Shown here one piece after another: positions 17,574 through 58,092 of a stretch of 64,000 nt of DNA. The translations under genes and the position numbers were made by a program. The DNA is from Malassezia japonica (Eukaryota; Basidiomycota; Malasseziomycetes; Malasseziales; Malasseziaceae), in contig NC_083374.1 in assembly GCF_029542785.1 (NCBI RefSeq), forward strand, positions 496,001-560,000, read 5' to 3'. The notes under the pieces were generated by a model. The model did no database searches, was not told the DNA's origin, and worked only from the letters and a program-made list of their open reading frames with translations. How positions within the stretch are numbered: position 1 is the first letter of the stretch; the number at the start of each line of letters is the position of its first letter.

Positions 17574-18461
17574 ATGCCCATCCAGTTGAATGATGCACTC
17601 GACCGAATTCGGGACATTGTTCCCCAGGAGCCCATGGCTTGGCAGCGGATTCAGGCATACATGATGCTCTCTGTTCCTCTACAAACATTGTGGTTTGGCG
17701 ATACACAGGGCGAAGCAGGTTCCCTGCCCATGCGGATCCGCCCAGTGATGATCTTGATCAATGTAGCTGTGTTGGTTCTCCTAGGCCTCCTTGGGTACGT
17801 TGATGGCCTTCTCACACTAGCTTCCATCCATCAGCACAAGACTATGTATACTTGAACGACAAAGTGATGCACTTTCTTGGTTTCATGATGGCCTCTTTTA
17901 TGTGCTACATGATCTGGGACCTAGACGAGGTAGGTTGCCCAGCCCTGCTGACTTAGCCTGCGCGGCGCATTTGGATCTGGCGTTACATGCCTCTGGCCGT
18001 CTCCTTCGTTGCGAGCGTGCTTGTTGGCGCGATTGGTTCCGAGTTTGTGCAAAGCATGTTGCCCGTACGTCGTGCGTCCAACTCACCCTCAGTATAAGAC
18101 GTTCCAGCTTGGCGACATTTTGGCCAATCTTGCAGGTTCGTCAATTGGCCTGTATGCAGCGTACCATTCCGAGCGCAAATATCGCGCACGCCGTGAAATT
18201 GAAACGCTGTACTCGCCTCTCCGCGCCGATACCAATCAGGCTGACGATATCTACGACGTGGGCGACTGGGGTGGGTCAGATACCAGCGATGTGCAAGATC
18301 ACAGCAACATCCATGCACGTCCGTCCGATCGGCGTTTGTCGGCAATCTGGAGTGACCGGCCGTACGAAGCCCACCCTGCTCAAGTCAACAGTGCCGCCTC
18401 CGGGGGCACCTTTTTCATGCTCGACGACGAATCTGCTGATCCACAGCCCACTATGAAATAG
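17574..18461 (+). CDS. VanZ-like multipass membrane protein, 4 exons
   Basis: Exons 17574-17794, 17821-17929, 17957-18064, 18093-18461 give 268 residues. The introns are 26, 27 and 28 nt, with GTACGT/GTAGGT donors and CTCAC, CTGAC, CTCAC branch-like motifs just before TAG, TAG and CAG. Splicing restores the VanZ-like core: a first membrane segment (VMILINVAVLVLLGLLG), LNDKVMHFLGFMMASFMCYM, a third segment (LAVSFVASVLVGAIGSEF) and QLGDILANLAGSSIGLY. VanZ-like proteins in fungi are uncharacterised membrane proteins; the name does not imply glycopeptide resistance. The soluble tail (~150-268) is polar and acidic. Splicing was inferred from frame continuity and domain fit. Confidence 0.8.
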
Positions 18462-18884
18462 ACATCATGATGCAATTCCTACCGCTTCGGCTGTGTCCCA
18501 ACTGATCGGACGCTGCACTCTCCATGCACTCCGCTGCGCCCAAACGGTCAGCAGACAATTTGATCCTGCACTCTGCCCTGGCCAAAAATTCAAATAGTCT
18601 TGCACGTGGGACGGGCGAACATTCTTGGCGTGGATTGGCTGGATAACCGGTGAATGGGAGAAAGTTGCCTAAGGAACCGAGTTTGGGCCAAGCCGGCAAC
18701 GCCTTGCGAAATTATCTTGCCCTGTTGCGGCATCCTCAATATCTAAGCCAATCAAATGAATGCATTGATGTGACAGTACATTCACGGCGCGTTTCACCGT
18801 GCTAGTGCACTGCAAACTTAAAGACAAGCCCCCCTATCTGTCTTTATATTGTCTTCTCCTGAAACCATCAGTGGCGCAGACAAG
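18462..18884. promoter_or_regulatory. Promoter region of the perilipin-like gene
   Basis: 423 bp without a gene. It holds CACGTG at 18603-18608, an inverted CCAAT (ATTGG) at 18634-18638, CCAAT at 18748-18752 and a TTTATATT tract about 35 bp before the ATG. Motif calls are direct; use by factors is inference. Confidence 0.5.
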
Positions 18885-19832
18885 ATGACCGACACCCAGA
18901 ATATCTCGAAGCCCCTCGTGAACAGTGAGGCCCTGAGCTTCATTGTCCACGTTCCGCTTGTCTCGGGCGCCGTGGACTACTCGTACTCTGTGATCAAGTC
19001 GCACTCTATTCTCTACCGCACCTTTTTGCTCGGCGAGAACGTGCTCGCCAAGTCGCTCGCCATTGCTGAGCCCATCACCTCGCGTCTGAGCACTCCCCTG
19101 AACAAGGCTGATGGTCTGGCTCTGCAGACTCTCACCTTTGCCAAGTCCAAGTTCCCCTACCCCTTCGAGGTGAAGTGGGACGATCTCTTTGCGATCGTGC
19201 AGAAGCCCGTTGACCAGGCCAACGGTGTGGTTTCCAACTACAGGAACTACGCCCAGGGCCTCTACGACACCCACGTGAAGGAGAACGCCAAGAACCTCTA
19301 CGACCAGACGAACAAGGCTGTCGAGCAGCTGCAGCAGAACGAGAACGTGTACCTCCAGCGCGCCGGCAACACGATTGTCTCGATCAACGAGAACCTCACC
19401 AAGATCGCCCAGGACTGGTCCAAGAAGTCCAAGGCTGAGGTCGCTGAGGGTGAGAAGAAGGCGCAGGGCCTTGTCAACAACCTCTTCTCTGAACTCGAGA
19501 ACCTGCAGAAGTTCGCCAAAGGCCTGCCTACCGAGGGCCAGAAGCGCCTTGCTCCCATCATCGACACCTTCTCCTCTACCTACAAGGAGGTGTACACCGA
19601 GGCCTTTGACTCGAAGCTCCCCATCCAGGAGCGCGTCACCAAGGTGACTTCGTACCTGCGCAGCGAGACCCTTCCTGCCCTTCACAAGGTATGTACGAAA
19701 ACCTATCACGATACTAACTACCAGGCTCTCCTCCAGTCTGTGCACGAGGCAGAGGCTGCTGCTGGCAAGTCCGAGAAGGAGATCTCCTCGAAACTCGATG
19801 AGGTTGCCAAGGAGATTGCTCCCTCCAAGTAA
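18885..19832 (+). CDS. Perilipin-like lipid droplet protein (Mpl1/Pln1 type)
   Basis: Exons 18885-19688 and 19725-19832 encode 303 residues. The N-terminal region (NSEALSFIVHVPLVSGAVDY, then TRLSTPLNKADGLALQTLTF-like text) has the PAT-like repeat layout of fungal perilipins, which coat lipid droplets. The middle (~100-250) is an amphipathic helical array. The 36-nt intron has a GTATGT donor, a TACTAAC branch site and a CAG acceptor, and carries no in-frame stop. Codon choice is strongly biased (AAG, AAC, GCT/GCC rather than GCG), suggesting very high expression, as expected for a lipid-dependent yeast. The start is ATG 18885; upstream in-frame text begins only at TTG. Confidence 0.75.
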   Translation: MTDTQNISKPLVNSEALSFIVHVPLVSGAVDYSYSVIKSHSILYRTFLLGENVLAKSLAIAEPITSRLSTPLNKADGLALQTLTFAKSKFPYPFEVKWDDLFAIVQKPVDQANGVVSNYRNYAQGLYDTHVKENAKNLYDQTNKAVEQLQQNENVYLQRAGNTIVSINENLTKIAQDWSKKSKAEVAEGEKKAQGLVNNLFSELENLQKFAKGLPTEGQKRLAPIIDTFSSTYKEVYTEAFDSKLPIQERVTKVTSYLRSETLPALHKVCTKTYHDTNYQALLQSVHEAEAAAGKSEKEISSKLDEVAKEIAPSK

Positions 19833-21202: not shown

Positions 21203-21278
21203 TGCCACCCATACCTAACTCTGCACAAATAGAAGCATGGGGTACAATGCTATCATTCATGGTATATAGTCGCGTACA

Positions 21279-22956
21279 CTACAGCGCTGCACATAACCCT
21301 GTGCTTTGACTCGCAGTCTGCTCCGATGCATCGCCTTGCTCGTGCGTGACAATCGCATCACATGCATCCAGCGTATTCGTCACACAATCATTCACGCCCA
21401 CACCCGCGTAGCTAAAGCCCAGCAAGGTCAGGCGGTCGCGCCAGCGTGGGTCGTGTACGAGCACATCGTGGACCTCTTGCATACGTGCAGGGTGGCCCAC
21501 GAGGTACTGTGGAATGGTATTCTCCAGCACACGGCCCCGAAGCAGCCGGAGATGCGTCTGCAAGACGGAGGAGGGCACACCCAGCATGTTTTCGAGGGTG
21601 CGCAGGGCGCGCTGCTCAATCTCGTCGACCGAGGGGAGCTCTTCCCGCTGCTTGCCTCGCCAGTACGGTCCGCCGAGCATCACGGTGAGCTTGATGAAAG
21701 GGGGACGACCATCCGCACCCGGCGTACCTTGGTTAGGCATCGCATCGCTGTCCAGTACTACGCCCAGGATCTCGTCTTGGTTGTTGGACGCACTGCGGGG
21801 AACCAAAAATCCAAAGCCACGGATCGGAAGCTCGTACTGCATTGAGGATGCATCGGGGGGCGCAAGTACGACGTCCACTACACTCATCGTTGCCGACGGG
21901 TTGTAGCCGAGGTGCGGGATCTCGGGGAGAAGAGGAGCCAGCTTAGCAGACGGCAGCGCCGCAAGAAGGCGGTCGGCGAAAAGCGGTGCCTTTTCGTTGG
22001 CAAGGTGCAGCTCCACGCCATCCGGACTTGCCTCAATTTTCTCGCACGCTGCATCCATACGCAGCTCCACGTGAGGCGCCGCAATGAGGTGGTCTTGCAA
22101 TGCAGCGATAATCTCGCCAAGGCCGTTGGGAAACGAATAGATGCTCGTGCTTTTCACCATGTCCAGCAAAGCAGGAGGGAGGCGTTGGGAAACACGCGCC
22201 GCTTTTTCCTTCTCCTCTGCCCATCGATTCCGCAGCCCTGCACGGTATCGTGAGTTGAGCTTCTTGCCAAAGGGCATCGCCGCACGCAACAGACTGCCGT
22301 GCGTCTGTTCCATGTCCACGAGGTTGGGCATCACACTTTGGATGCTCAATTCTCGCGTGTCACCGGCATAAATCCCGTGGATCATGGCCGATGCCATATT
22401 TTCCGCCATCGGCTTGCCTGCGCGCCGCGACAGGAAGTCGTGCACCGATTCGTCTTCGGATGTTGTCCGGCGTTCGACCAACGGCTCACGGAACAGGCCA
22501 GGGAGCGTCGCACGCACCAGGGGCAGGCGCATCATTGCGAAAAGTGCAGAGAAAGGCGAAGAAGGGAGCCGGTTCAGGCGTCCGTTGTGGTATAGAAACC
22601 GGTTCTTTGCCGATGGAGAGTTCTTGGGGACCAACACCATTCTGTCGGTCAGGGAGAGCTGGTCGAGCTGCGTCAGAAATAGGGCATACCATTTCAAGTG
22701 TACGCAGCCCTTTGTACCGAGACGGCATCAGACTCCGTGGCCCGCTCTCGAGCAGGGCCGTGGCGTCGCTCTTGGCATCAGCATGAACAGGCACACGTTC
22801 GCTGTGCATCCAGCCTCCGAGCCGTTTTTGCGCCTCGAGCACCACGATTTTATAACGTTGAGGATCCAGCTGACGAGATAAGGAAAATGCCGCAGAAAGG
22901 CCTGCGATACCGCCACCCAGCACGGCGACGGTCCGGCGGCTCACCCCCTCGGCCAT
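21279..22956 (-). CDS. HEM14: Protoporphyrinogen oxidase
   Basis: Mitochondrial FAD enzyme oxidising protoporphyrinogen IX to protoporphyrin IX, the penultimate step of heme synthesis. Exons (minus strand) 22956-22690 and 22667-21279 give 551 residues. The dinucleotide-binding motif VLGGGIAGLSAA sits at 12-23. The 22-nt intron (GTATGC donor, CTGAC branch, GCAG end) joins GLRTLEM to LDQLSLTDRMVLVPKNSP, which restores the conserved PPOX sequence without a gap. The start is ATG 22956 (MAEGVSRR). It shares a 139-bp divergent promoter with the respiratory gene QCR7, containing TCACGTGA and an inverted CCAAT. Confidence 0.93.
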
Positions 22957-23095: not shown

Positions 23096-23613
23096 ATGGC
23101 CTCTGTACGTATTAATTGCGCGCGTGCGGACAGAATGCTGACCAGCGGCTGTGCAGAAGTCTATTTCGCTTGCGAACTTCATCCAGTCTTCGCCGACGCT
23201 GCTGAAGCTTGTTCAGCCGGTCGCGAACGCGTACGCGCAGACTGCTGGCTACCGCCAGTTCGGTCTCCGCTACGACGACCTCCTCGAGGAGGAGAACCAC
23301 CAGATGCAGAAGGTACGTTTGCACAAGCCCGCGCGCATGAACGGGACTAACCGCGCCAACAGGCTATCTCGCGTCTTGAGCCGATTGAGGGCTACGACCG
23401 CGCCTACCGCATGCGGCGCGCGGTTCAGTGCTCGATCCTCCAGCGCAACCTTCCCAAGGAGCAGTGGATCACCCCCGAGGATGTACGTTACTTTTTCGCA
23501 GCAGCTGACCTCAGGACGTCCGCTACATCACTCCCCTCGTGGAGCAGATCCAGAAGGCTGACGACGAGCGGGCTAACTTTGACACGATGAAGGTCACCAA
23601 GTCTAGCCACTAA
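23096..23613 (+). CDS. QCR7: Cytochrome bc1 complex subunit 7 (14 kDa)
   Basis: Matrix-side subunit of ubiquinol-cytochrome c reductase. Exons 23096-23104, 23157-23312, 23363-23482, 23515-23613 give 127 residues, the family's usual size. The first coding exon is only three codons (MAS). Splicing yields MASKSISLANFIQSSPTLL, then FGLRYDDLLEEENHQMQKAI, AYRMRRAVQCSILQRNLPKE and DVRYITPLVEQIQKADDER, all conserved Qcr7 blocks. The introns are 52, 50 and 32 nt; the first two are the longest in the window. Donors are all GTACGT. Divergent from HEM14, so a heme gene and a heme-enzyme subunit share control DNA. Confidence 0.92.
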
Positions 23614-23932: not shown

Positions 23933-25413
23933 ATGCACACTCGTCCGCGAGATACGGGCTCAGGCAGATCTCTGCCAGCTGAGCTGCTTTTCCTGTGCAC
24001 CTGTGCGACGCTGTTCACGACTGTGTTTTCGTCGTATTCGATTTTGCTGCAGCTCAAAAATTATTACAAGCCGTACTGGCAGCGCTATGTTGTGCGCATC
24101 CTTGTGATGTAAGTGCTCCTGACTCACGTAGGCCGCTGCTCTATGCCATCGCATCAACCATTTCGCTCTTCTCGCTGCAGCTGGCAGAGATGATTGGACT
24201 CGTGCGGGATTTGTACGAGGTAGGTCGTCTGCGTCTGACCTCTGGCTTTTGTGATCTATTGTTTCTTCAACCTGCTGGTTGAGTACTTGGGCGGCGAGAG
24301 CAATATCCTGGCAATGCTGCGTGGCCGACCGCCCACGCCGCATCTGTTTCCACTCAACCTCTTTCTACCCCCTATGGATCTCAGCGACCCGTATACATTC
24401 TTGTACTTGAAACGGGGTATCCACCGTACGTATCAAACACGCTCACTCCAGAATATGTACAATTCAAGCCGATTCTGGCTGTTGCAACAGTCGTGCTTAA
24501 GATCCTCGGCAAGTACCAAGACGGACGTTTGAATGTGCAAAATGGATACACGTGGATTGCGCTGTTGTACAGTACGTATTCAAACGGTATGCTCACGCAG
24601 ACATCTCTGTCTTTATTGCATTGTATGCACTGACCATCTTTTGGGTGTGTCTTCACAAGGAGCTGCAGCCGTTCCGTGTCGCTTCCAAGTTCCTCTGCGT
24701 GAAGGGCGTCATTTTCTTCAGTTTCTGGCAAGGACTGACCATATCCATCTTGGTCGCGGCAGGAATCATCCGGCACAGTACGTATCCCAGTGTTCTGACC
24801 CACAGTTGGCTCGGTGGTCGACGATATGTACCTCTCGGCCGCTTTGCAGGATACCTTGATCTGCCTGGAAATGCCCATCTTTGCAGTGGCTCATGCGTTT
24901 GCATTCTCCTATCACGATTATGTTCAGCCTCCCGAGAAGCTGGCGGGGCGCATGCCGTTCTTGTACGCAATGAGGGACAGCTTCGATGTGGGCGATATCG
25001 TGGCAGACACCATTGCTACATTCCACGGCACGGAGTACACGTACCGGTTGGCTGAACCTAACGACTCTACAATGCACCACGCATACGCGTTTGAGCGCCG
25101 AAGCCGAGCGGGATTGCGCTATACAGAACAGGGCAAGGGAAAATACTGGGTGCAAGGTGCGCCCAACGCGCCGATCGAATCACACGGTGTCCCAGGTCGT
25201 GTTTCTAGTCCTGTTCCTGTCCATGGATCAAATGAGCAGACTCCTCTTATGCAAGGCAAATCACCTGCATCGCAATACACTGCTATTCAAGTTTCGGACG
25301 AGGGCGCCGAATCGATTCATTTTGATGGCCCGAGCGAGGACGAGCAAAGTTCGTATGACATGGCTCGCAAGCTTCCTTTTGGAGATTATAGATACCCCTG
25401 TATTGGACCGTAA
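23933..25413 (+). CDS. TMEM184/Ost-alpha family (DUF300) seven-pass membrane protein, 6 exons
   Basis: Exons 23933-24108, 24132-24219, 24245-24425, 24452-24571, 24601-24777, 24806-25413 give 449 residues. The introns are 23, 25, 26, 29 and 28 nt. Splicing restores family blocks: LQLKNYYKPYWQRYVVRIL, AFVIYCFFNLLVEYLGGES, FKPILAVATVVLKILGKY, FWQGLTISILVAAGIIRH and EMPIFAVAHAFAFSYHDY. Fungal and animal members are endomembrane or vacuolar proteins of unclear transport role. The tail after ~330 is polar. The second intron (24220-24244) seems to end in TG rather than AG; see findings. The start ATG 23933 fits, but an upstream exon cannot be excluded. Confidence 0.85.
24220..24244 (+). other. Apparent GT-TG intron
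   Basis: 25 nt with a GTAGGT donor and CTGAC branch-like motif, ending CTCTG instead of CTCAG. It is needed to keep the conserved AFVIYCFFNLLVE segment in frame. The nearest AG acceptor (ending 24283) keeps frame but deletes that segment. Confidence 0.55.
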
Positions 25414-26102: not shown

Positions 26103-28835
26103 CTACTGGAGCTGTGCACTAGCATCGGTCAACAAACGCCATGCAGACTCGGGGTTCCTGCCCAAGCCCGTCGGCTCTTGCTTTGCGCGCCTTGCCGCAA
26201 CCTTAGGAAGGTCGGACAAGCCTTTGACGACATGAAGCCAACCTTGCGACACGTCTTGCTGGAAGCGACGGGCTTGGCCAGGAGCAAACTGCTGAGAGAT
26301 ACGGGCATCTGGATGTCAGGAATAGGTACGTACTCGGCATAAGAATACGCTCGACAACGGCTTTGCTCAGACTTTCGGCAACATGACGGTACAATGGCAG
26401 CAGCAGCGTAGGCGGAAGAAGCTGGACCATTTCCGAGAGCAAAGACGAGAGTTTGGACAGTGCTGGCAAGAGCTCGCGCGTAGGGATATCCTGACCGGAT
26501 GTTTCCTCTTCTTCTGCGTCTTCGTCTTGTCCCACCTCGGGAGTTTCGTCGCGGTCCCAGCGTCTGTGTAAGTGTATGACACGTACCGAACAATATACGG
26601 CCGCATCTGCTCGAGAACCTCTGAAACGACCAGGCGTTCAATGCCCCGTTTCGAGCGTTCGGAGATTTCAGAAAAGCGGGTGCGGGCGCTATCCCAAATC
26701 CCTGGCACGTCTTCCAGAGGCGCTTCGGTGTCCGCCGTAGGCGGCTTGTCGGCGTCGTTGGCACCGGCGAGAGGACGCAACGTCGCAGCGGCGGTAGCGC
26801 CACGCTGCAACCCCCGCTTCAGTGCCGAAATTAAGCTTGCCGAGTCGAGCTCATCGTTACTCTGCGACGGGAGCATGAGCCCGTAGAGCGCCGAGTTCTT
26901 GTCCAGCATCGACACATCCTGCCCCATGCTCAGGAAGAAGGACGATTCCGACCATTCCTCGAGCTGCTGCGCGACATACTCTGCCGAAAGCAGTGCCTTG
27001 GCGACGCGGCTGAGACCCTTGGTGCCCCGCACCACATCGTTGCCCGAGCCGGCCGACAGCGAGCTAATTTCGCCAGGAATGGCTCGAGAAAAAGCGCCGC
27101 TCAAATTCTCAAATGCATCGAGATGGCGAACCAAGCGCATAGCAAACGCGCTCAGCAGCGGACGCTGCACGCGGATCACAAATGCACAGCGTTGTCCGAG
27201 CGAGTGCAGCGGCTGGTACCGCTCCGTGACGCCCAAGAGGATGTTCATGAGCGTGCCAGCGCAGCGCGTTGTCGTCTGTGCATCCGTAGCGGCCTCTGCA
27301 TCGCCTGCATCGAGGCTAAGATCGTCTTCGTCCGTGAGCGTATCCGCCTGGACAAGTGCCCATGCACTGGGCGTCTCCAGCACGGTCTCGAAGCGGCGCT
27401 GTGCAAAGACACGCTCGCCATCGAGCCACTCTTGAAAGTAGGTATCGTTACCGAGGACTTCGTCCGCAAGGCATACTGCCCCTCGCCCTTCGGCCACAGC
27501 CGCGGCCGGACGGTACACTTCGCGCAGATCGGCGTCAAAGGTGAGGTACTGGAAGATGTTGTGTGCAAGCAATGCAGGCTGCTCGGCCAAGAGTTCCATC
27601 GAGGCGTGAATCTTGCGTCGCAGAGGGTACAGGACGCTGTGCAAGAGCTCTGCCGCGGTGTCCACGTAGATATGGCGCTGGCGGAAGGTCGTCACCGGCG
27701 GAATGGGCCGGCGGAGCCGTGTCAGCTCGGCGATTTCGCCGCCTGCCTGCCATGCGTCCGGCGCCGGGCGGAACAAGGCGCTGTTCATCTGGACCAGCGC
27801 CAGCATATGCCGCAGGAACCACTCCGGCTTGTCTAGTCGATTCGTCGAGCGGTCGCCGTCAAAGTGGTAGCGGAACCGCAAGAGGATCGGGTGAAAGAGA
27901 ATCGTGACGGCCTCCAAAGGAACATACGCCTCCGAGCCCGGCTGGGCAACGGCCGCGTTTGCCGTCTCGGAGCCCGACACGGACGGGAGCGTGCGCACGG
28001 CGCTCGGCGCAGCCTGTATGCCAAGAGCAGCGGCCGTAAGCTGCAGCTCACACACGTCTACCCATGCATCCTTGAGGTCGGCGTGCGCCAAGAGCGAGAA
28101 CGAGCCGAGGTCCGTGCGGTCTGCGTCCGGATTCTGGTGCTCGGGCGGAGGCCAGTGCATTTCGTCGAGCACGGCCCGCAGCTTGTCTGTATAGGCCGTG
28201 TGCAGGCGATTGTAGAGCGCGTCACGCCGTTGGACAAGCTCGTGCGTCGCACGCAGCGGCACGCTGGTCCCCTCGCCGCCCTCGCTCTGGGGCACCTGTT
28301 CGACGAGCGCCGCGAGCCGCTGCAGCGTGGCCATCTGGGTGCTCGACACGTCCTTCGCCGCGTCGGCCGCGTTTGTCGCGTCATCCGCTTCCGCAAGCAG
28401 CTGTGTACAAGTACGTGCAATGTACATCTGCGCGAGCGTGCTTGCGGTCGCCTCGTCCTTTGGCGTCTCCTCGACGGCTGTCGGCGCGCGGGTCGTCATG
28501 CCTTCGGCGAAGCGCTGCAGCGGCTCGGCAACGTCCTCGTCGACATTTTCCTCGCCCAGTGCCGTGCCCAGAAGTGCCCGCAGCTCCGACTCTGCCTTTT
28601 GGAGCCCCTGCATCGCCGCCTCATTGTCGGCGTTTACGCGCTCGCGCACGTCGCCGAGTGGATCGGTTGCGATGCGCTCGCCGAGCAGCGGGAGGAGGTG
28701 CAGATCGGCCGCGGTGCATGCCCAGCGCTGCACATCGCCTGTAAGTGGCGCATGTAGATACTCCTGGAGCCTGCTTGGCTCTGCATGCAGCTCCTCCGGG
28801 ACGTATTCCGGCACGGCCCAACGCACGTCGGCCAT
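26103..28835 (-). CDS. TIP20: Tip20/RINT1 family tether subunit (Dsl1/NRZ complex), 3 exons
   Basis: Subunit of the ER tether that receives Golgi-derived COPI vesicles. Exons (minus) 28835-26587, 26563-26334, 26308-26103 give 894 residues. Family blocks include NIFQYLTFDADLREVY, WLDGERVFAQRRFE, the MNILLGVTERYQPLHSLGQR region and a C-terminal helical end (QARRFQQDVSQGWLHVVKGL, then KVAARRAKQ). Introns are 23 and 25 nt, with CTTAC and CTGAC branch-like motifs. Without splicing the C-terminal ~145 residues would be lost. ATG 28835 (MADVRW) is chosen over an upstream TTG. Divergent to a small membrane-protein gene, with 65 bp between starts. Confidence 0.86.
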
Positions 28836-28900: not shown

Positions 28901-29144
28901 ATGTCTGGCTCGTACCTGTACGTGGCGCTGCTGACCTAGCTCTGCCCAGCCCGGCTTTCTGAACAACAACGCCTCCCGCCGCCCCGAGGAGCCGCAGTCG
29001 TGGCTCGCGCGTTTCTGGGCCGAGGAGTTTAGCAACCCCGCCAAGCTGTGGGGCAACCTGTCGGTTGCGTGGAGCGTCGGCTTCTTTGCCCTCGGCGTCG
29101 TCTTTGTGCGCAAGGCGGGCTGGATCCTCGCGCCTGCCTTCTAA
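28901..29144 (+). CDS. 73-residue single-pass membrane protein, unknown function
   Basis: Exons 28901-28917 and 28940-29144. The 22-nt intron has a GTACGT donor, CTGAC branch motif and CTAG end; unspliced, the frame stops at that TAG. The protein begins MSGSYLSAQPGFLNNN, has an acidic/Trp-rich segment (PQSWLARFWAEEFSNPAKLW) and one hydrophobic helix (NLSVAWSVGFFALGVVFV), then a short basic tail (RKAGWILAPAF). A small tail-anchored-like protein of this kind could be a mitochondrial outer-membrane or respiratory accessory subunit, but I do not recognise the family. Its TAA is directly followed by the stop of convergent TRAX. Confidence 0.65.
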
Positions 29145-30006
29145 CTATGATTCGTCCATATCACTGGGCTGCAGTGCGCGACGCACCAGCTCCTGGACCA
29201 TGGAGGCGTCTCCTTTGTACTCGGAGCTACGCACCCGTAGCGTGTAGGCGACTGTATTAGCACACACACGTACCATCCTCGACCTTGCGCAAGGAAGTAA
29301 AAGAGACCTGCTGCTTCTTGCGGATCTCGGCTTGGAATGGGGCCAGAGGCTCGAGCGCCTCGTAAATCGCCCGCTGCATCCCCACGACGCGCGCAATGAT
29401 CGACGACGCATTCGGACTCGCGACCGAGTTGATTGCAAAGCGCATCAGCTCGCCAGTCAGATCAGAAAGGCCCAAGAGGTAGCGCATGGGTGTAATGTAC
29501 AGGAGCTGTGTCAGCACGGCGACGTACGATGCCTTGCTCGGTCGACAGCGCGGCCTGTAGGACAGACAGGGGGATGAGTGCGTCATGCTCCAAAAAGTAG
29601 AGAAACGAGGCGCCTTCAATCTGGGTCAGCCGTGCAGCGCACCATTTCCTCGAGCGACGCGCCGACAAAGCGCTCAAAACGCAGCATATTCGGACTCGGC
29701 TGCGCGCTCGTACTCGCGAGCTCTTCGACATCGGCACACGACCGCAGCATCGCGTACACTTCCTCGAGCTTTGTGTGTGCGTCGCGCAGCAGCTTGGCAT
29801 TGGCCTCGCGCCCAGGCTCGGTCGGCCAGCCGTGCGCGACAGAGTAGCGGTGCAGGTGGAAAATGAGTTTCTTGGAAAGCGCAGTCACATCGCGCGACGT
29901 CTTGATCAGGCGCTCACGGCGGTCATTCTGGATGAGTACGGCGACGTACATAGGCATCGATCTCGTCGCGGTACGCCTCAAAGACACTCGGCAGTCCCTC
30001 GGCCAT
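29145..30006 (-). CDS. TSNAX: Translin-associated factor X (TRAX), 5 exons
   Basis: Translin-family protein; with translin it forms the C3PO nuclease that trims small RNAs and tRNA fragments in fungi and animals. Exons (minus) 30006-29950, 29927-29643, 29620-29528, 29505-29274, 29251-29145 give 257 residues. All four introns are exactly 22 nt. Spliced landmarks: NDRRERLIKTSRDVTALSKK, FERFVGASLEEM, ALIPLSVLQAAL, YLLGLSDLTGELMRFAINS, then the exon 5 stretch YTLRVRSSEYKGDAS. ATG 30006 gives a short N-terminus typical of fungal members. The stop codon touches the stop of the small membrane-protein gene. No translin gene is in the window. Confidence 0.88.
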
Positions 30007-30210: not shown

Positions 30211-31061
30211 TGACGAGGGCGAAGCGCAAGATGACGACTCAGGCTCGGACGTCGAAGAGATTGCCACGTCGTCGACACGCAAGCAGGCGCGGCAGCAGAC
30301 CGCAAGCGCACAGAAGCGCAAGGAACAGTATGTTTCTATACTGACACAGGGAAAACGCTGCGCGACGTGCCAAAGAGCAGCGGAAAGCCAAGCCCGCTCA
30401 TACTTCGCGCCGGGCACGACGTGTGCAGGCAGAGGAGGATGACGAGGATGACGAGGAGGACGAGGAGGACGAGGACGAGAAACACGAGGACGCAGGCGAG
30501 TCGACTGCGACGCGTCTGGACCCTGCGCTCTTTGCCGCTGCCTTTGCACGCCACGACGCCGCTGCTCGGCAGGCGCTGCAGCCCCGCGAGGCACCGAAAA
30601 AGAAGCGCATGGCACGCGGCCGCGATGGCCAGCCGATGATGCGTGTGCAAGGCGAGCAGACGCTTGTGCGTGCGCTTTCGCCGGAGCGCGATATTGACGT
30701 CGTGGATACGCCGCTCGAGCATACTCCGTTGGACCCCGGCCGGGCGCTGCCGACGGCGCGCGAGCGTGCCTATCGGAAACGCAAGCTGGGCCTGCGTGCC
30801 TCGGATGTGCGCGCGACGGCGATCGACGGCGGCAAGAAGCGCGCCGAGAAGCCTGCCAAGGACGCCAGTGACCCGCTGGGCATGAACGACCCAGCGTTTA
30901 TGCCTGGCGGTGAGTTTGCGCACCTAGCGCGGCGAACGCGCTCGAAGCGGCCACGCGCATCCTCGACCTCGGCCGGAGCACGGGGTGCCGGTGGGCGTGT
31001 GCAAGCGCCGCATGCTCCGCGGATGGGCCCTGCGCAAAACTTTGCGCGGTCGCGTGGGTAG
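30068..31061 (+). CDS. Acidic nuclear-type protein, unknown function
   Basis: Exons 30068-30327 and 30350-31061 (22-nt intron: GTATGT donor, CTGAC branch, CAG end) give 323 residues. The first 140 residues are mostly Asp/Glu, with basic clusters (QKRKEQENAARRAKEQRKAK). Two acidic runs come from GAGGAC-type repeats (about 30176-30212 and 30433-30482). The C-terminal half is basic with a possible nuclear signal (KKKRM, RKRKLGLRASDVRA) and a conserved-looking DPLGMNDPAFMPGGEF. I do not recognise the family; composition suggests a nucleolar or chromatin protein. Divergent from TRAX (61 bp) and convergent with the next gene (68 bp). Confidence 0.7.
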
Positions 31062-33987: not shown

Positions 33988-34971
33988 ATGGACGACGGCC
34001 AAGGCGCGGCGCGCGGCGCACGGATCGTCGTGTAGGTCGACCGACTGACGCAGGCACGCGCTCCCGATGCTGATTATGGCAGAGCACCTGGTGCGCACAT
34101 CGCTCGAAAACGACGGACAGAGTAGGTCGAGGCGCTGACGCAGCGTACGGTGCCTTGCTCGGCACATCGTCGCCGTCGCAGATCGAGGTGCACAATGCGT
34201 TCGAGGTCGCGTCCGCGGACGGCACGTTGGATACGCAGTTCCTTGCCAAGCGGCAGGACCAGTGTATGTCGCAAGACTGACGCAGATGAGCAAGTCTTTC
34301 CGCAGTGGGAGGTGCTCGGGTGGTACTCGGTCGGCACGACGCTCCCACAGCAGCACGCCGCAATCCAGCAGCAGGTCGAGGTGCTGACGCCCGCGCCGAT
34401 CGTACTCGTGCTGGACCCGTCGCAGGCGGCGTGTGCGAAGGCCAACGAGCAAGGCACGCTGCCCTTTACCGCCTACGAGCCCCAAGGCACGGACCTCGTC
34501 CCGTGCACCCTCGCGCTCGGCACCGCCCCTGTCGAGCGCGTGGTGCTGAACGATGCAAATAGCCGCGCGCTCAACACGAGCGACGACGCGGCCGCGCCGG
34601 GCGCGGATCACGCAGGTACGTCGCACGCCTCACACAGTCCTTGCATCACTGCAGGCAGAGCGCGCCGCTACACAGATCCTACGGGACCGCCTACGGGAAG
34701 CGTGCGCATACGTCGAAGGCGTGCAGCGCGGGACATACCCCCACGACGACCGCATCCTGCGCACGCTCGCAGCCGCCGTCGCGAACCAGGGCAGCGCGGT
34801 GCCCCCTGCATTCACCCGGCTCGAATCCCGCGTACGTTTTCTATTCTTACGCAGATCCACGAAGACGCCGCGCTCACGACGTACCTCGCGGACCTCACTA
34901 CGAACCTGCACCACCTCCACGAGCTCGTCGAGGCGAGCGCGTTCCACGCGCCGCGCGCGCGGGGTGTGTAG
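33988..34971 (+). CDS. CSN6: COP9 signalosome subunit 6 (MPN-minus), 6 exons
   Basis: Non-catalytic MPN subunit of the COP9 signalosome, which removes Nedd8 from cullins. Exons 33988-34031, 34054-34121, 34144-34263, 34286-34615, 34638-34831, 34855-34971 give 290 residues. Introns are 22, 22, 22, 22 and 23 nt. The MPN fold is read as HALPMLIMAEHLVR, YGALLGTSSPSQIEVHNAFEV and VFPQWEVLGWYSVGT. The JAMM zinc residues (HxH...D) are absent, as in Csn6. The order DQYEQVFPQWEVLGWY after splicing matches Csn6 better than Rpn8 or eIF3f. C-terminal helices complete the protein. Stop codon overlaps a 20-bp palindrome upstream of MCM3. Confidence 0.8.
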
Positions 34972-35009: not shown

Positions 35010-37512
<2,503 letters not shown>

Positions 37513-37618: not shown

Positions 37619-38285
37619 ATGGCAGCCGAGTCAAACTACGACTATCTCTTCAAGGTTGTGCTCATCGGTGACTCTGGTACCGGTAAGTCCAACCTGCTCT
37701 CGCGTTTCACGCGCAACGAGTTCAGTCTCGAGAGCCGCAGCACGATCGGTGTCGAGTTTGCGACGCGCAGTATCAACGTCGACGGCAAGACGGTCAAGGC
37801 CCAGATTTGGGACACGGCCGGCCAGGAGCGCTACCGTGCGATCACTTCGGCGTACTACCGCGGTGCGGTGGGTGCGCTGCTCGTGTATGATATCGCGAAG
37901 CACTCGACCTATGTCAACGTCTCGCGCTGGCTCAAGGAGCTGCGCGACCACGCCGACAGCAACATTGTGGTGATGCTTGTCGGCAACAAGAGCGACCTGC
38001 GGCACCTGCGCGCCGTGCCTACCGAGGAGGCCAAGGCGTTTGCCGCCGAGAACAACCTGTCGTTCATCGAGACGTCGGCGCTGGACGCGTCCAACGTCGA
38101 GCAGGCGTTCCAGAATATCTTGACGGGTACGTTGTTTTTGGCTAACGTGAGAAATCTACCGTATTGTGTCGAACAAGGCGCTGCAGTCTTCGGACGACGT
38201 CATCAAGCCCAGCGGCGGCGAGACAATCTCGGTGCAGCCCAGCACCGACGACGGCGGCCAGCAGAAGAAGGGCGGATGCTGCTAG
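37619..38285 (+). CDS. YPT31: Rab11-type GTPase (Ypt31/Ypt3)
   Basis: Rab GTPase for trans-Golgi exit and recycling to the plasma membrane. Exons 37619-38126 and 38152-38285 give 213 residues. G motifs: GDSGTGKS (17-24), WDTAGQE, NKSD and ETSAL. The switch-region text [12 protein letters not shown] and [19 protein letters not shown] is Rab11-specific. The C-terminal CC after GGQQKKGG is the double geranylgeranylation site. The 25-nt intron ends CTAACGTGAG, so its acceptor is GAG rather than CAG/TAG. Without splicing the prenylation motif would be lost. Confidence 0.95.
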
Positions 38286-45345: not shown

Positions 45346-46713
45346 CTATTCGACACCGGACTCCTGCGTAAACTCGATGTGCTTCGCAATGTCGGCCTGC
45401 GTCACGGACGGGCGCACGGCGTGGATGGCTTTCAGGAAGTCGTTCAGGACCAGGCGCGGCTCGAGGAGCTCGTCGGACCCGACGTCGGCCCAGGACATTT
45501 CGAGCGCGTCGGCGTCGCCGGGAGAGCACGGCGTAAACATCGTCTTTTCCTCGCCGTCCTTGTCGACGCGCACCTGCTTAAAGTGCGTCGCATTCATCAC
45601 GCGGCGCACGGGCTGCATGAGCGCTTCGCGGACGAGCACGGCAACGTCCGAGCCAGAGTAGCCCTCGGTCTGCTCGGCGAGGTTGCGGTAGTCTTTAGGC
45701 GTGAGCGAGCACGGCGTCGCGCCAATGTTCAGCTCAAACATGCGCCGCCGCGCGTCGAGGTCGGGCAGGGGGATATAGACACGCTTTTCAAAGCGGCGCT
45801 TGATCGCCACGTCGAGCGCCCAGGGAATGTTGGTCGCGCCGAGAACGAGCACGTCGGACTGGTCGTCATTTCCGACGCCGTTCATCTGCACCAGAAACTC
45901 GGTCTTGATGCGCCGCGACGCTTCGCTCTCGCCTTCGGACCGTGTGCCGCAGAGCGAGTCGACCTCGTCGATGAAAATGATCGATGGGCGCGCCTCGCGT
46001 GCCATTGCAAAGAGCTGCTTGACCAGCCGCTCGCTCTCGCCCATCCACTTGGAGACCAGGTCGGAGCTCGAGACGGAGAAAAAGGTCGAGTTGGACTGCG
46101 TCGCAATCGCCTTGGCAAGGTACGACTTGCCGGTACCGGGGGGGCCATATAGCAGGATGCCGCTCCACGGCTTGCGCTTGCCGGTAAAGAGCTGGGGGAA
46201 CTTGATGGGGAGGATCACGGCCTCTTTGAGCGCGTCTTTTGCCGTCGCAAGACCCGCAACGTCATCCCAGCTGACATTAGGGCGCTCCGATAGAATTACA
46301 CTAGACAGACCCGAGCGGAGCTTCTTCGTCTCGGCGTCGACGCCGTCCTCGCCTTCGTCGGCCGCCTTCGTCGCGCCACTCCCGCCTTTGCTCGGCGCCG
46401 CGGTCTCGGCGTTCTGCACCTTGGCGAGGTGCTCTTTGAGCTTCTCAGCACGATCCAGGTACTCGACAAACTTGGCTCGGATGAGTCCTTTGAGCTTTTC
46501 ATTCTTCTCGTCTGCGTTAGCGAGGCAACGCACACTTCATCGCCATCATGAAGTAGTCGAGACTGTTTTGGTACTGCACGTACGCCTCCTGGTAGTTATG
46601 TTTTACATCTTCGTCGATCGCGCGCTGCACGATATCAATCGCACGCTGCGTTAGCTGCGTTACCTACGTCCAAAAAGTCGGTCTGGCCCCTGGGTTAGTC
46701 GCGCTACGCACAT
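45346..46713 (-). CDS. VPS4: AAA ATPase Vps4, start codon split by an intron, 4 exons
   Basis: ATPase that disassembles ESCRT-III at endosomes. Coding exons (minus) 46713-46712 (AT only), 46689-46668, 46645-46534, 46511-45346 give 433 residues, the family norm. All three introns are 22 nt. Splicing yields [19 protein letters not shown], then [19 protein letters not shown], a complete MIT domain. The AAA domain has Walker A GPPGTGKS, Walker [11 protein letters not shown] and the C-terminal Vps4 helix. The initiator ATG exists only after the first intron joins AT to G. Unspliced, the genomic ATG at that site leads to a stop within ~20 codons. Divergent to phospholipase D. Confidence 0.9.
46690..46711 (-). 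other. VPS4 intron 1, interrupting the start codon
   Basis: 22 nt with a GTGCGT donor, CTAAC branch and CCAG end. AT precedes it and GGGCCAGACC follows, so the ATG forms on splicing. Confidence 0.7.
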
Positions 46714-53153: not shown

Positions 53154-54603
53154 CTAGGCAGCTACCTGTGTCGTTTGCGTTGGTGTGTGCCACATGTACC
53201 ACTGTACAATGATCACGAGATCAAATACCAGGGTTCCACACGCGCCCAAGAGGAAGGGAAGGCTCTCCATCAGGAATGCCTCACGCTGGGGGCCCACGGC
53301 TTTCGGGTTGGAAAGGATGCTGACTGAGTACAGCAAGTTGGCAAAAAAGGCCGAGACAAACAGCAACAGCGACAGGCCCTTGACCGAGCGCCGCTGGAAG
53401 TTGGTCCAGATCTGCGGCAGGCGTGACGTCATGTACAGGAGGGTGCACACCCACGCCGAGATACGGCCCACCAGCTGACTGAAGGACAGCCGCGGACGGC
53501 GGCGGCGCGACCGGTGGTTGTGCATCGTCGCCACCTCTGGCATGTATAGCAGCACAGGATGCCGGGGCGACGCAATATGTATGGTATCCTGCGTGCGCCA
53601 GCTGTCCTCTAGCATGCCCAGCTCGCTCACCGAGGCATTGCTCAAGGACGTGACCGGGGCGGTGCTCAGCACCGTCGTCTCGCCCCCGCCAGTCTCGACG
53701 AGGTTCGAGCGAAAAGGGCCGAATGCGAAGAGGCCATAGACGCCGAGCAGGACCATGGCCGAGCCGCGGCGCGTCGTGCTGGGGTTAGGGGCAAGGAGAC
53801 GCTTGCGCTGGAGATGCGGCGCGGGCGCCAAAGCACGCCCGCTCTCGTCGTCCGAGCCCGGACCGACCATGCTACCTGCGAGCGACCCTGGCTCTTCCAC
53901 CGGTAGAGCGAGGCGCTCTCGCCGGCGCCCGCGTGCGAGCGACTCGGTGGTGGACGATTCCATGTCCGACGGCCAAAACGACTCGTCCTGCTGAGCGCTC
54001 GGACGGCGTGAGCTCTGGGACTGCGCGCGGTCCTCCTTAAAGTGCGGCGTGCTGTGCGAGCGGTGGCCATTCAGGCCACGGACGACCCACGCGTCCGAAG
54101 ACCGTGCCCGCTTCGACTGCGGCCGGTAGGCGACGACCGGGGCGTGGTGCCGCGACGAGCGCGTCGCACGCGAGTTCGAGCGCAGCGAGTGACGTCCGCC
54201 GCGTCGGTACTTGGCCACCAAGAGTGGCGTACGCTCCGACACAAACGAGTCCCGATCGTGGGACGGCTTCGCGGAAGGCTTCCCGTACGCTGCGTCAGCT
54301 GAACAACGTACCCCAAAATTGCGCGCAGAGGCAAAGATCGACACTCAGCATGTACGCAGCAATGACAATTTGCATAGGCAGCTGGTGCGTAAGGATCGAA
54401 CCGACAAGGTTGGTCAGGTCGCCGGCGGTCCACTGTAGCAGGAAAACAGCCGAAAGACCATCGACACTTTTCGTCTTGTAATTGGTATATAATTGACTGC
54501 GTTAGAAGACAAACACGTACGGGGATTGGGCAAAGATCCAAACAATCAAACTCGCGGTGCCCGAGAGATGCGAGAGCGTCTCACGGCCCACCGCCGCCCA
54601 CAT
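53154..54603 (-). CDS. PQ-loop vacuolar amino-acid transporter (Ypq/Rtc2-like), 3 exons
   Basis: Seven-pass PQ-loop protein; fungal Ypq1-3/Rtc2 export basic amino acids at the vacuole. Exons (minus) 54603-54521, 54496-54312, 54289-53154 give 467 residues. Introns are 24 and 22 nt. Splicing completes the first PQ motif: SLIVWIFAQSPQLYTNYKTK then VDGLSAVFLLQWTAGDLTN. The second PQ motif is TSRLPQIWTNFQRRSVKGLS near the C-terminus. Between them is a ~170-residue basic/Ser-rich loop containing ERTPLL, a dileucine-type sorting signal. Without splicing, the first half of the transporter would be missed. Confidence 0.88.
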
Positions 54604-54678: not shown

Positions 54679-55250
54679 ATGAACCGTCGTACTGCTGGGG
54701 CGCCGGATCGGCACGCGCTGCTGACTGCGCACTCGTACCCCGCGTCTACGTCATCTGCGCGGCTCGTATCGCCTGCTGTGTCCGAGTATAGCACGCCGCT
54801 TCGCACTGCGTCGCCGTACGAGAACCCCTATGGCGACGCGCGTGCCACGGACGGCGCGCCGAAGGAGGCGGGCGGTGGCTTTGTAAGTCTCTTTCAAGGC
54901 ACGGCCGCGCAGCAGCGGAGCGCTGCTGATTTAGAAGAGCAGAACGACTCGCGCCTGGATGCGCTGAGTGAGCGGATCAAGATGCTGAAAGACGTAGGTC
55001 GATCTGCTTACCTAGATTTCTACGGGGATTGGCAACGAAGTGCGCGACTCGACAGCGGATATGAACTCGCTGAATGACGTCTTTTCGAATGCGTCGGCCT
55101 TATTGGGCTCGACCTTTACGCGTATGAATGCCATGGCCCGGAGCCAGCGGGGATGGTTCTGCAATATGATGCTCTTCTTGATCCTGGTGATCTGGATCTT
55201 TGTACGTCCCCTTGCTCACACAGGTCATTTTATGGTGGTGGAGGCGATAG
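54679..55250 (+). CDS. BET1: SNARE Bet1, 3 exons
   Basis: Qc-type SNARE for ER-Golgi transport. Exons 54679-54993, 55016-55201, 55224-55250 give 175 residues. Both introns are 22 nt. The SNARE helix reads LDALSERIKMLKDISTGIGN then EVRDSTADMNSLNDVFSNAS. The membrane anchor is NMMLFLILVIWIFVILWWWRR across the last junction, with under 10 residues after it, as in Bet1. The N-terminal ~90 residues are Ser/Ala-rich. The final exon is only 27 nt including the stop. Divergent to the PQ-loop gene, with 75 bp between starts. Confidence 0.9.
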
Positions 55251-55287
55251 ATGCCGTTCGTACATAATCTACACAGGGCGCACCAGG

Positions 55288-56904
55288 CTAGTTGGTCGCC
55301 GTTTGTCCATCGGAATCGGTGGTCGAGATACCAATCCCTTTGCACGATTGGAAGACGGGCAAGCAGGACAGGTACCTGCACCAGGTACACGCCTGCCGCG
55401 GGTCTTCACTGCGGTAAAAGTTTAGGCCGAGAGCCACAAAGTAGGCCACCAGCAGGCCCAGGCCGATCAGCCGCAGCACCCAGGTCCCGATCATGTGTGA
55501 GCGCGTAGCATGGATGGACGGGGCAAAGAAGAGGCCGCCGAGGATTCCGATGCAGAACCCGCCAATGTGCGAAAAGTTGTCGATGCCCGGCAAGAGCCCT
55601 AGGCCCAGGCCGATGATGGAAAAGATGGTCGAGGTCACAATGCGTGTCCGTGCCCGATTTTCCTGCGTCAGAATAGGGACGTACGTATTTCGAGTTGTAG
55701 ATCAAGTCCACAATCTCGAGACTGATACACGTATAAATCGAGCCCGAGGCGCCAAGTGCGGGCTGCCCGATCAACCCAAAATTGCCGCCGAGCAGGTTGC
55801 CGCCAATGCCCCCGGCCACAAACACCACCGTGTACGCCACGGAGCCAATCAACTTTTCAATTTGGCAGCAGAGCGTGAGGAGCACAAGCAGGTTAAAGAG
55901 GATATCTGGGTGAGGATGCGCCACGTACGGACAATGCCGGAATGTACAAACTGGGTTAGCATGCGTACGTACGATTGCCGACACAAAGCGGTAGGATTGA
56001 TTGGGATTGCTCGCATCCGCTAGGCCACAAATTTCGGCCAGAGGACAGAGTTGGTTCGGCGTAAAGGTGGTTTGAGACGACGTCGTGTATTCCAGACACG
56101 GCAGCCTGTTGGTCGCAGGAAGACCAGGCATGCTCCGCATGCAAGGTACAAATCGTGCGCCAAACGAGATGAGAAACTCGGCAGAGGGACCCAGCATCGG
56201 CTGGATTTGGGGGTGCGTCTGTATTGCTTGCCCAGTCGTCTGTTTTGCAATGATCAGCTCGGCGATAAAGGCGCCCGTCATGCCAAGGCTGTGTGAGGAA
56301 TAGAGACGTACGCAAGGAACCAGCTCACGAGCGGCAGGGACTGGCGCCCGCCGCCACGTTGCCGATGATCAATCTGGCGCTGCAACAGCTCAGGATTCGA
56401 CCACGCAAACTTGCCCGGCTTGCGCGGTAGGCCTTCGTCTGTCGAATTGGGCATCCAGTTGGACATGAGTGTGGGATGGTGTTCGTCGTAGCCCATGGGA
56501 TGATGAAGCTGTCGCGCCTCGTCGTCTTCGTCTTCGGCAAAGTTCATCGTACTTCCGTGCTTGGCAAGGGGCAGTTCCGAGTCACTGCCCCATGCGCCAC
56601 CGTAATGCGGTGGGGAGTAGTGGGTGCCATGACGAGCCGAGGACATGGATCCGCCATCCGGCCCCGCCGCGGTCAGATAAGGCGCTTCCGAGATCCCTGA
56701 TGCCGAATCAAAGGCACCTGGCCCTTTCGGGTGCATGACGCCAGTCTCGTACACGCCATCGCCTGCATGTTGCAAGTGGTAGACACTGTCACTGTCGCCT
56801 CCGTATTGCGTGAGCTGCGTCTCATAGGGCGACTCTGTGGCAGGGGCACGATTCGCATGTAGGTGCTGCTGCACGGATGAGAATAGATCCGCGTCGCTAC
56901 TCAT
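55288..56904 (-). CDS. Rhomboid intramembrane serine protease, 5 exons
   Basis: Exons (minus) 56904-56312, 56288-55973, 55950-55929, 55905-55685, 55662-55288 give 508 residues. Introns are 23, 22, 23 and 22 nt. Exon 3 is a 22-nt microexon encoding FVHSGIV. Splicing restores RFVSAIFVHSGIVHILFNLL, GGIGGNLLGGNFGL, the catalytic Ser motif GASGSIYT and the His in DNFSHIGGF. The CTWCRYLSCLPV cysteine-rich tail is typical of fungal secretory-pathway rhomboids. The N-terminal ~190 residues are cytosolic and disordered. The catalytic dyad is intact, so activity is expected; substrates are unknown. ATG 56904 is preferred over an upstream GTG. Confidence 0.9.
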
Positions 56905-57074
56905 CGCAGTCACACACCGATCAAAAATCCACCCACCCCGCCAGACGGCCGTGTTGTTGCGGAATTCCAGGCGCCGCACGGATGCCACGCGGAACACAGC
57001 CTAAGCCAACACTTGGCTTAATTCGAAACACACCCCCTCCACTTTCCTCCACGCTGCGGTGATTGGCACAAAGC

Positions 57075-58092
57075 ATGGCGCACGATGCATGCAGCGCCGC
57101 ACTTGCAGTCCAGGACAAGGCCAAGGGCGCAGGCGATGGTGCCCCGCGCGACACGATCCTGCGTGTGAAGCGCAAGCGCGATGAAGATCCGATTGACGCT
57201 TTTGTCGTGCAGCTCGGGACAGTGCCGGGCGCAAAGCAGCCTCGCCCGACAGCGCGGGGGGGGCAAGAGCCTGGCATGTTTCGGCTCCGCGAAACGGTGC
57301 CGAAACCCCTGAATGATGCTGCGCGTGTGATTGAAGCAGAATGGGATGCAAGCCGCCGAAAAATCGCTATTAAGCGGAAGCGCGATGGCCACGAGGAGGA
57401 TGATCAGGCCCAGCGGAAAAAGACGTGGACAGCGTCCAGCACAAGTCCATCGAGGATGGATCACTTTGCGGAAATGTTGTCTGATTATTTAAAACGTACG
57501 TTGCTTTTCTCACGCAGTCCAGCCCAGCCAGGCCGAACCAAGCAAGGAAGCCGAAAAATATGTGTACGATATCTATTATCGCGAGACGGTGCCGCTGCAC
57601 TGGAAACTCCCTGCCAACAAGGAGGAATCGAAAAAGGCCGTGGAAAAGCATAAGCCCCCGGCAATCGGCCGCGTTGCACGCGTTGGACCGCCACAGGTCG
57701 GGCGCGCGTCCGAGCCGGCCAAGGCTTCGTATTCTCCTGTCCCTCTGCCGCGGCACACGCCTTCGGCGACGAGCGCGCCGGGCTTTGAACATCTGAGTGC
57801 ACTCAGCACCGAGCATGCGCCCGACTGGGAAGAAGACTGGGACGAAGCCGACTTTATCCCTGTCTTCTTGCGGCCGAGCGTGGACGAAGAAGGACGCACG
57901 ACCGTCGTGCCAATTTCGTCGACCGGGCAGCGCCTAGCAGAGGCACAGCTCGTGCACGAAGAACTACGTGCTCCGCCCTCAATGCTGGGCGAGGACGAGG
58001 ACAGCAACGACGAGGATTACTTTGGCAACGACTACCCTGATCGCGACGAATGGGAAGAGAACAGCGATACGTCGGAGGAGCCTGATTCTTAA
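57075..58092 (+). CDS. IWR1: RNA polymerase II nuclear import factor Iwr1
   Basis: Iwr1 binds assembled Pol II in the cytoplasm and carries it into the nucleus. Exons 57075-57495 and 57518-58092 give 331 residues. The 22-nt intron restores SQAEPSKEAEKYVYDIYYRE. Family marks are the N-terminal basic motif LRVKRKRDEDPIDAFVV, YVYDIYYRE, the acidic DWEEDWDEADFIPVF and the terminal EDSNDEDYFGNDYPDRDEWE. A basic bipartite-like stretch (RKIAIKRKRDG) lies in the middle. Divergent to the rhomboid gene (170 bp) and convergent with the C2H2 gene (113 bp). Confidence 0.9.

Follow-up and report, generated by a model that had tools for sequence, protein, structure and literature searches.

Introns of the window

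The stretch of the genome of the skin yeast Malassezia japonica analyzed here (64,000 nucleotides (nt), contig NC_083374.1, positions 496,001 to 560,000; hereafter the window) carries 41 curated introns between positions 17795 and 57517, of which 22 are exactly 22 nt long. Both counts are the same as those of the original prediction, which was made from the sequence alone. Its figure of 36 introns of 29 nt or less became 37 of 41 after re-curation. The introns begin with GT and end with AG in 40 cases, and with TG in the remaining one (24220-24244). The branch motif CTNAY was present in all 41, and the pattern GTNNG-N8-CTNAY-NN-AG fitted all of the 22-nt introns.

Introns were called in a 264-kilobase (kb) sample, corresponding to 3.1% of the genome (8.43 megabases, nine contigs). 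The sample comprised the window, 40 kb beside the window, and eight 20-kb stretches on contigs C1, C2, C3, C4, and C6. Two decoders were applied. The weight-free decoder is a two-strand coding model in which the intron ends GT and AG are the sole intron knowledge. The weighted decoder uses donor, branch, and acceptor weights derived from motif-bearing introns, without a length term. At a penalty of -12 it returned 136 introns and at -14 it returned 118, with 55 of 22 nt in both cases; the result at -14 is reported. When iterated under a weak penalty, the decoder escalated to 1,288 calls, and this version was rejected.

The window list started from 37 introns of the weighted decoder. Two long calls were dropped (17930-18092, which is really two introns, and 24963-25195), and two were shortened (the intron at 34616, and 46690-46711). 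Six introns were added: 17930-17956 and 18065-18092 from decoding at penalties -10 and -11, and those at 17795, 22668, 24109, and 24220 by eye. In the following list the source is the weighted decoder unless another is given, and further evidence stands in brackets.

17795..17820, plus strand: 26-nt intron, VanZ-like gene, by eye
17930..17956, plus strand: 27-nt intron, VanZ-like gene, decoder at -10 and -11
18065..18092, plus strand: 28-nt intron, VanZ-like gene, decoder at -10 and -11
19689..19724, plus strand: 36-nt intron
22668..22689, minus strand: 22-nt intron, HEM14-like gene, donor GTATGC, by eye (Pfam PF01593, 95.5 bits)
23105..23156, plus strand: 52-nt intron, QCR7 (UCR_14kD) (structure alignment begins just past the junction)
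23313..23362, plus strand: 50-nt intron, QCR7 (gap-free against best solved chain)
23483..23514, plus strand: 32-nt intron, QCR7 (gap-free against best solved chain)
24109..24131, plus strand: 23-nt intron, TMEM184-like gene, the sole donor of the list with A at +4 (GTAAGT), by eye
24220..24244, plus strand: 25-nt intron, TMEM184-like gene, TG end instead of AG, by eye (Pfam scores, homologue alignment)
24426..24451, plus strand: 26-nt intron, TMEM184-like gene
24572..24600, plus strand: 29-nt intron, TMEM184-like gene
24778..24805, plus strand: 28-nt intron, TMEM184-like gene
26309..26333, minus strand: 25-nt intron
26564..26586, minus strand: 23-nt intron
28918..28939, plus strand: 22-nt intron, gene for a 73-residue protein (no Pfam match)
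29252..29273, minus strand: 22-nt intron, TRAX junction J4 (homologue alignment)
29506..29527, minus strand: 22-nt intron, TRAX J3
29621..29642, minus strand: 22-nt intron, TRAX J2 (homologue alignment)
29928..29949, minus strand: 22-nt intron, TRAX J1 (homologue alignment)
30328..30349, plus strand: 22-nt intron
34032..34053, plus strand: 22-nt intron, CSN6 (database protein match)
34122..34143, plus strand: 22-nt intron, CSN6 (database protein match)
34264..34285, plus strand: 22-nt intron, CSN6 (database protein match)
34616..34637, plus strand: 22-nt intron, CSN6, decoder preferred 43 nt (22-nt form gives the database protein exactly)
34832..34854, plus strand: 23-nt intron, CSN6 (database protein match)
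35431..35452, plus strand: 22-nt intron, MCM-family gene (Pfam)
38127..38151, plus strand: 25-nt intron, Rab-like GTPase gene (Pfam)
45289..45310, plus strand: 22-nt intron
46512..46533, minus strand: 22-nt intron, VPS4 (structure alignment)
46646..46667, minus strand: 22-nt intron, VPS4 (structure alignment)
46690..46711, minus strand: 22-nt intron, first of VPS4, apparently splitting the start codon AT/G, by eye in place of a 29-nt decoder call
54290..54311, minus strand: 22-nt intron, PQ-loop gene (Pfam)
54497..54520, minus strand: 24-nt intron, PQ-loop gene (Pfam)
54994..55015, plus strand: 22-nt intron, gene earlier labelled BET1 (no Pfam match)
55202..55223, plus strand: 22-nt intron, same gene earlier labelled BET1
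55663..55684, minus strand: 22-nt intron, rhomboid gene (Pfam)
55906..55928, minus strand: 23-nt intron, rhomboid gene (Pfam)
55951..55972, minus strand: 22-nt intron, rhomboid gene (Pfam)
56289..56311, minus strand: 23-nt intron, rhomboid gene (Pfam)
57496..57517, plus strand: 22-nt intron, gene earlier labelled IWR1

Length mode and lower edge

The weight-free decoder found 94 introns in the 264 kb. The commonest length was 22 nt (20 introns), followed by 23 nt (7), and the signals GTACGT and CTNAC with NCAG emerged untaught. When the sample was re-decoded with the final weight-free model at unchanged penalty, the total was 99 introns; 20 of these measured 22 nt, and the full motif was present in 32. 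The weighted decoder placed 55 of its 118 introns at 22 nt, 11 at 23, 5 at 24, and 9 at 25, so that the mode predicted from the window held in the larger sample. The median was 23 nt, 90 introns measured 29 nt or less, and a single one was below 22 nt. The population is short for a fungus, as the original prediction had proposed. It was not confined to the neighborhood of the mode: 80 of 118 lay at 22-25 nt and 28 above 29 nt, the latter including some decoder errors, and introns with a clear branch motif formed a tail from 23 to 58 nt.

The lower edge was also seen in motif scans. A scan of the sample for GTNNGT...CTNAYNNAG, which involves no coding model, gave 57 sites at 22 nt compared with 2 in the reversed sequence, none at 20 or 21 nt, and 5 compared with 4 reversed for 15-19 nt pooled. 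Across the whole genome, GTACGT-N7-CTGAC-NN-AG occurred at 599 sites (289 + 310), and the reversed pattern at 1. When the same GTACGT/CTGAC signals were allowed spacers of N0-N6 (15-21 nt), 4 sites were found genome-wide, against 2 reversed. For the GTACGT/CTGAC class, 22 nt is a sharp floor. Sample density (118 introns in 264 kb) leads to an estimate of ~3,800 introns in the genome, and the class ratio (11 introns of the GTACGT/CTGAC class in the sample) to ~5,400-6,400; sample density thus implies several thousand, a total that is uncertain.

Seven decoy dinucleotide pairs served as controls. Their results bear on the possibility that no splicing takes place, the segments being instead bypassed during translation, excised from the DNA, or mere sequence errors or artefacts of decoding. 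In favor of an artefact, each decoy pair produced 80-93 calls, up to 35 of them at 30 nt or less. Because decoys give similar call numbers, the GT/AG signal consists of the 22-nt peak and the motif and not of the number of calls, and in these the decoys were deficient: they placed 0, 4, 0, 0, 2, 1, and 1 calls at 22 nt, with no full motif. The ratio of 599 sites to 1, the GT-AG ends, the CTNAY branch motif, and the canonical U2 and U6 described below likewise speak against unspliced segments, and sequence errors would not have one motif in common. In addition, gene models of Malassezia restricta were built on RNA sequencing with minimum intron settings of 20 and 15 (PMC6473144). We regard unspliced segments as hardly credible.

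One decoy pair, AC/CT, peaked at a length of its own, 13 nt (13 calls), and its total score came close to that of GT/AG (15,840 and 15,862, respectively). This peak is probably a shadow of the 22-nt introns, since deleting 13 nt inside a 22-nt intron restores the same frame. An 18-nt peak in an unconstrained scan (68 compared with 15) would likewise fit the GT at +5 of GTACGT.

Internal spacing

Spacings were tabulated for the 99 of the 118 weighted-decoder introns that are 60 nt or less and have a clear branch motif; 19 were dropped. In 57 of the 99 the branch adenosine was at position 17, a distance of 16 nt from the donor, and the longer distances tailed off to 20 nt and beyond. The adenosine was nearer in 1 intron, in which a CTNAC is also found at the standard position. 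The last G followed the branch adenosine at a distance of 5 nt in 76 of 99 and never at a shorter one. A constant donor-to-branch distance had been predicted; we found a sharp minimum of 16 nt plus a tail, which is a floor and not a single tuned length. As both spacings stand at their minimum in the 22-nt introns, 22 nt can be read as the sum of two floors.

The spacer between the donor and the branch motif (+7 to +13) was variable yet non-random in 52 aligned 22-mers, with an excess of G at +8 (28/52), C at +9 (32/52), and a purine at +13 (41/52). Pairing with U6 was considered as the cause of this bias and, in a check by hand only, does not explain it.

Spliced proteins and their homologues

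Of the 105 introns no longer than 60 nt, 98 would shift the reading frame if retained, a proportion to be read with the preference of the decoder for such introns. Expected Pfam domains were found in 8 of 10 spliced proteins, the exceptions being the product of the gene called BET1 and the 73-residue protein. The proteins submitted included CSN6 spliced at the 43-nt intron, VPS4 in which the first intron was taken as 29 nt, and, for the MCM protein, a 254-residue part. The claim that splicing restores conserved proteins stood for TRAX, VPS4, CSN6, rhomboid, and the HEM14-like protein; it did not for BET1, which had no Pfam match. With its exons joined, the product of the VanZ-like gene reached a Pfam E value of 4e-6 and 27.9 bits, slightly below the cut-off of 30.1. 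VPS4 residues 20-448 aligned with a solved VPS4 structure across junctions, and QCR7 residues 4-124 aligned gap-free with solved subunit 7, spanning the second and third junctions.

The five-intron model of CSN6 was identical over 290 of 290 residues to the M. japonica database protein MJAP1_003053. The intron at 34616 is accordingly 22 nt and not 43 nt long, because the 22-nt form yields this protein exactly, and five tiny introns are already part of the M. japonica CSN6 database gene model.

For TRAX, 18 homologues were aligned from the best 120 of 408, 11 of them from Malassezia; a Malassezia cuniculi match (P0020) was left out. The best matches were those of Malassezia furfur and Malassezia obtusa (73-74%). 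The sequence was continuous and free of insertions across J1 in 14, across J2 in 17, and across J4 in 16 of the 18 homologues. Database TRAX proteins of M. obtusa and Malassezia yamatoensis contain insertions of 7 and 8 residues, respectively, exactly at J1, each with V first and Q last. In the M. yamatoensis protein, a missing segment also matches the J2-J3 exon to within one residue. Directly past J4, the proteins of Malassezia equina and Malassezia nana diverge from the other homologues. Two M. furfur proteins begin past J1, and one of them has an 8-residue insertion away from the window junctions. Altogether, 4 of the 11 aligned Malassezia proteins were faulty at junctions (insertions, missing exon, changed ending), and 2 more start downstream of J1. 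The affected homologues are P0002, P0004, P0008, P0011, P0012, and P0014, four of them faulty at intron junctions.

The TMEM184-like gene was scored with the 25-nt GT-TG and the 64-nt AG forms of the intron at 24220; a 79-nt AG alternative exists as well. The GT-TG join gave 311.9 bits with PF03619 compared with 266.4 for the 64-nt form. Of forty homologues aligned from the best 120, 38 were continuous at the GT-TG junction. The other two are those of M. sp. CBS 17886, where 12 residues (V...Q) are inserted at this point, and of Malassezia vespertilionis, where residues are missing. Positions 24220-24244 appear to hold either a base error or a genuine GT-TG intron. The V...Q insertions in both TRAX and TMEM184-like homologues are probably translated GT...CAG introns, judging from their end residues and positions. 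The 7 residues in M. obtusa hint at a floor of 21 nt in that species.

These insertions also bear on the origin of the 22-nt class, which could have arisen in a recent burst in which copies of a single short element became introns, in place of the shrinkage of old introns. The uniform length and motif of the class speak for such copies. Against them are the seven spacer positions, which are variable although non-random, and the insertions of M. obtusa, M. yamatoensis, and M. sp. CBS 17886 at the same junctions, which suggest shared positions with differing lengths. A recent burst is very unlikely.

As a separate observation, no M. japonica entry was among the best 120 homologues of TRAX (29145-30006) or of the TMEM184-like protein (23933 onward), unlike CSN6. 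The species' own database models of these two genes may be missing or much shorter.

Spliceosome components and the donor +4 position

The genome contains one U2 small nuclear RNA (snRNA) with GUAGUA and one U6 snRNA with ACAGAGA, so both recognition sequences are canonical. Together with the GT-AG ends and branch motifs of the window introns, this agrees with the earlier description of the introns as spliceosomal; they behave so. The U2 snRNA gene (C2:763486-763677) reads AUCUUUUUCG where the family consensus has a AUUUUUGG stretch.

Among protein factors, Slu7 was matched at 307.9 bits, and the SNRNP27 family at 38.1 bits over 28 of 56 positions. The best match of a U2AF65-like gene reached 224.4 bits, with a second piece at 28.9. 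Presence of U2AF65 is likely and not certain, because these scores fall under the curated cut-off of 310.3. A METTL16-like gene matched PF05971 at 142.4 bits and has the NPPF motif. Structure comparison of its first open piece alone (236 residues) gave 150.6 bits for the best solved match, psilocybin synthase, an enzyme that derives from METTL16, and 92.7 bits for METTL16 itself. The joint absence of Slu7, U2AF65, METTL16, and SNRNP27, the four factors tested, by which a reduced spliceosome would be recognized, was not what we found.

U1 snRNA was not found genome-wide by Rfam or by three patterns. For Rfam RF00003, of whose 132 first-look candidates 41 were scored, nothing matched at E values up to 10. 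The pattern of stem-loop I plus the 5' end gave a single match, which was rejected as it looks like coding sequence. ATACNTACCTG had 17 matches (reversed control 4), none with an Sm-like site or a U1 loop and none equal to ATACTTACCTG, and the pattern from the 5' end to the Sm site had 34 matches, against 34 in the reversed control.

At position +4 of the donor, C was preferred. The curated window list had C in 30, G in 6, T in 4, and A in 1 of 41 introns, whereas among the 99 introns of the weighted set 75 had C, 13 had T, 11 had G, and none had A. The latter counts come from weights that disfavor A; the weight-free set, which is free of that fault, had C in 26, G in 5, T in 4, and A in 0 of 35. 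In Saccharomycotina, +4 alternates between A and U, and a +4U preference accompanies the loss either of both METTL16 and SNRNP27 or of a single methionine in SNRNP27 (PMC10581693). In contrast, M. japonica prefers C, and METTL16-like and SNRNP27 families were both matched. An explanation modelled on that study, in which the missing +4A results from loss of METTL16 or SNRNP27, is therefore unsupported. A wider proposal joins a third donor preference, +4C (GTACGT), which loss of METTL16 or SNRNP27 does not explain and which a changed U1 5' end perhaps matches, to a two-part steric floor and thousands of minimal introns, in a culturable host with an otherwise ordinary spliceosome; as a whole we hold it to be rather doubtful.

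Interpretation of the 22-nt floor

Very probably, the segments belong to the ordinary U2-type spliceosomal introns and have been reduced in size until two minimum spacings set a lower limit, at which deletion pressure piles them up. The first floor would be the distance of 16 nt that separates the branch adenosine from the first intron base and would let the U6/5' splice site and U2/branch helices form side by side. The second would be the 5 nt by which the last G follows the branch adenosine, and added together the two would give 22 nt. Deletion pressure in a compact genome would drive introns down to this wall, where they would pile up while a tail of longer ones remains. We infer both the steric nature of the wall and deletion bias as the driving force. 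A model of a floor plus deletion bias has been published for mikrocytids (PMC10245619).

The original prediction had pointed to a machinery tuned to one length, that is, a spliceosome that measures and prefers exactly 22 nt and splices longer introns less well. The 55 of 118 sampled introns at exactly 22 nt would fit such a ruler, and so would a correlation between the donor-branch and branch-acceptor spacings. However, the fall on the two sides of the mode is one-sided, with a tail from 23 to 58 nt and almost nothing below 22, and the 5-nt acceptor spacing is retained in 24 of 41 introns with longer donor-branch spacing. The parts tested (U2, U6, Slu7, U2AF65-like, SNRNP27, METTL16-like) showed neither an altered factor nor special machinery. 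A tuned ruler is unlikely.

Several points weigh against introns shrunk to two minimum spacings. The spacings are not independent, as the 5-nt acceptor spacing occurred in 52 of 57 introns with the branch adenosine at position 17 compared with the above 24 of 41 (Fisher p 0.0002), and this correlation could point to selection on total length. Among the 45 introns of the weight-free set with CTNAY, the adenosine was at position 17 in 24 and nearer in 8, and the distance to the last G was 5 nt in 30 and 4 nt in one; the weighted set was preferred for spacings because the weight-free set includes false calls. The genome-wide lower edge was measured for the GTACGT/CTGAC class alone. The decoders see coding introns alone and favor those that shift the frame, J3 of TRAX lies in a length-variable stretch and is uninformative, and we infer removal as RNA from genomic evidence.

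Relation to known systems and significance

A review describes "very short introns" for Malassezia (PMC7426719). In M. restricta, introns have a median of 30 and a mean of 37.2 nt (n = 2,150; PMC9241646), compared with a median of 23, a mode of 22, and a hard edge in the M. japonica sample. For Malassezia globosa, the annotated introns average 76-79 nt (PMC4634964), and tiny introns may have been overlooked there. Malassezia arunalokei, of the same genus as M. japonica, is grouped with M. restricta and M. globosa as a short-intron Malassezia. Among the papers inspected from a literature search, none reported a 22-nt mode or floor in Malassezia. A proteogenomic study of Malassezia sympodialis may already report such a mode or floor.

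Outside the fungi, mikrocytids resemble M. japonica in having lengths piled at a floor and conserved motifs. They differ in that none of the 224 annotated introns falls outside 16-17 nt and the spliceosome has undergone strong reduction (PMC10245619), whereas M. japonica has a tail above 22 nt and the tested factors are present. Introns of the chlorarachniophyte nucleomorph (18-21 nt) and of heterotrich ciliates (15-16 nt) are likewise ultrashort and narrow (PMC10245619); these non-fungal introns are shorter and narrower in range than those of M. japonica. With introns of 15-17 nt in mikrocytids and heterotrich ciliates (PMC10245619), the earlier statement that 22 nt is close to the physical minimum for a spliceosome was too strong. 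Type B introns of Trichomonas vaginalis are also short (one of 23 nt) with fixed motifs; that organism has 63 active introns (PMC12316389), compared with the several thousand implied for M. japonica by sample density. The present analysis adds a hard 22-nt edge in a fungus with the tested factors present, the reading of this edge as two floors, a donor preference for +4C, and faults at particular junctions in the gene models of relatives.

For annotation, the relevance is that some Malassezia TRAX database models break at such junctions. The sample had an intron density of 0.44-0.53 per kb of coding sequence, and M. sympodialis is treated as intron-poor (PMC8476143); overlooked tiny introns may bias comparisons of intron density. 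The minimum length of a spliceosomal intron is an open question that has been studied mostly in unusual protists. Because the 22-nt edge is clean in the 599-site class, in a fungus with the tested factors present, the wall is directly testable, and M. japonica is a culturable fungus suited to asking how small a removable intron can be.

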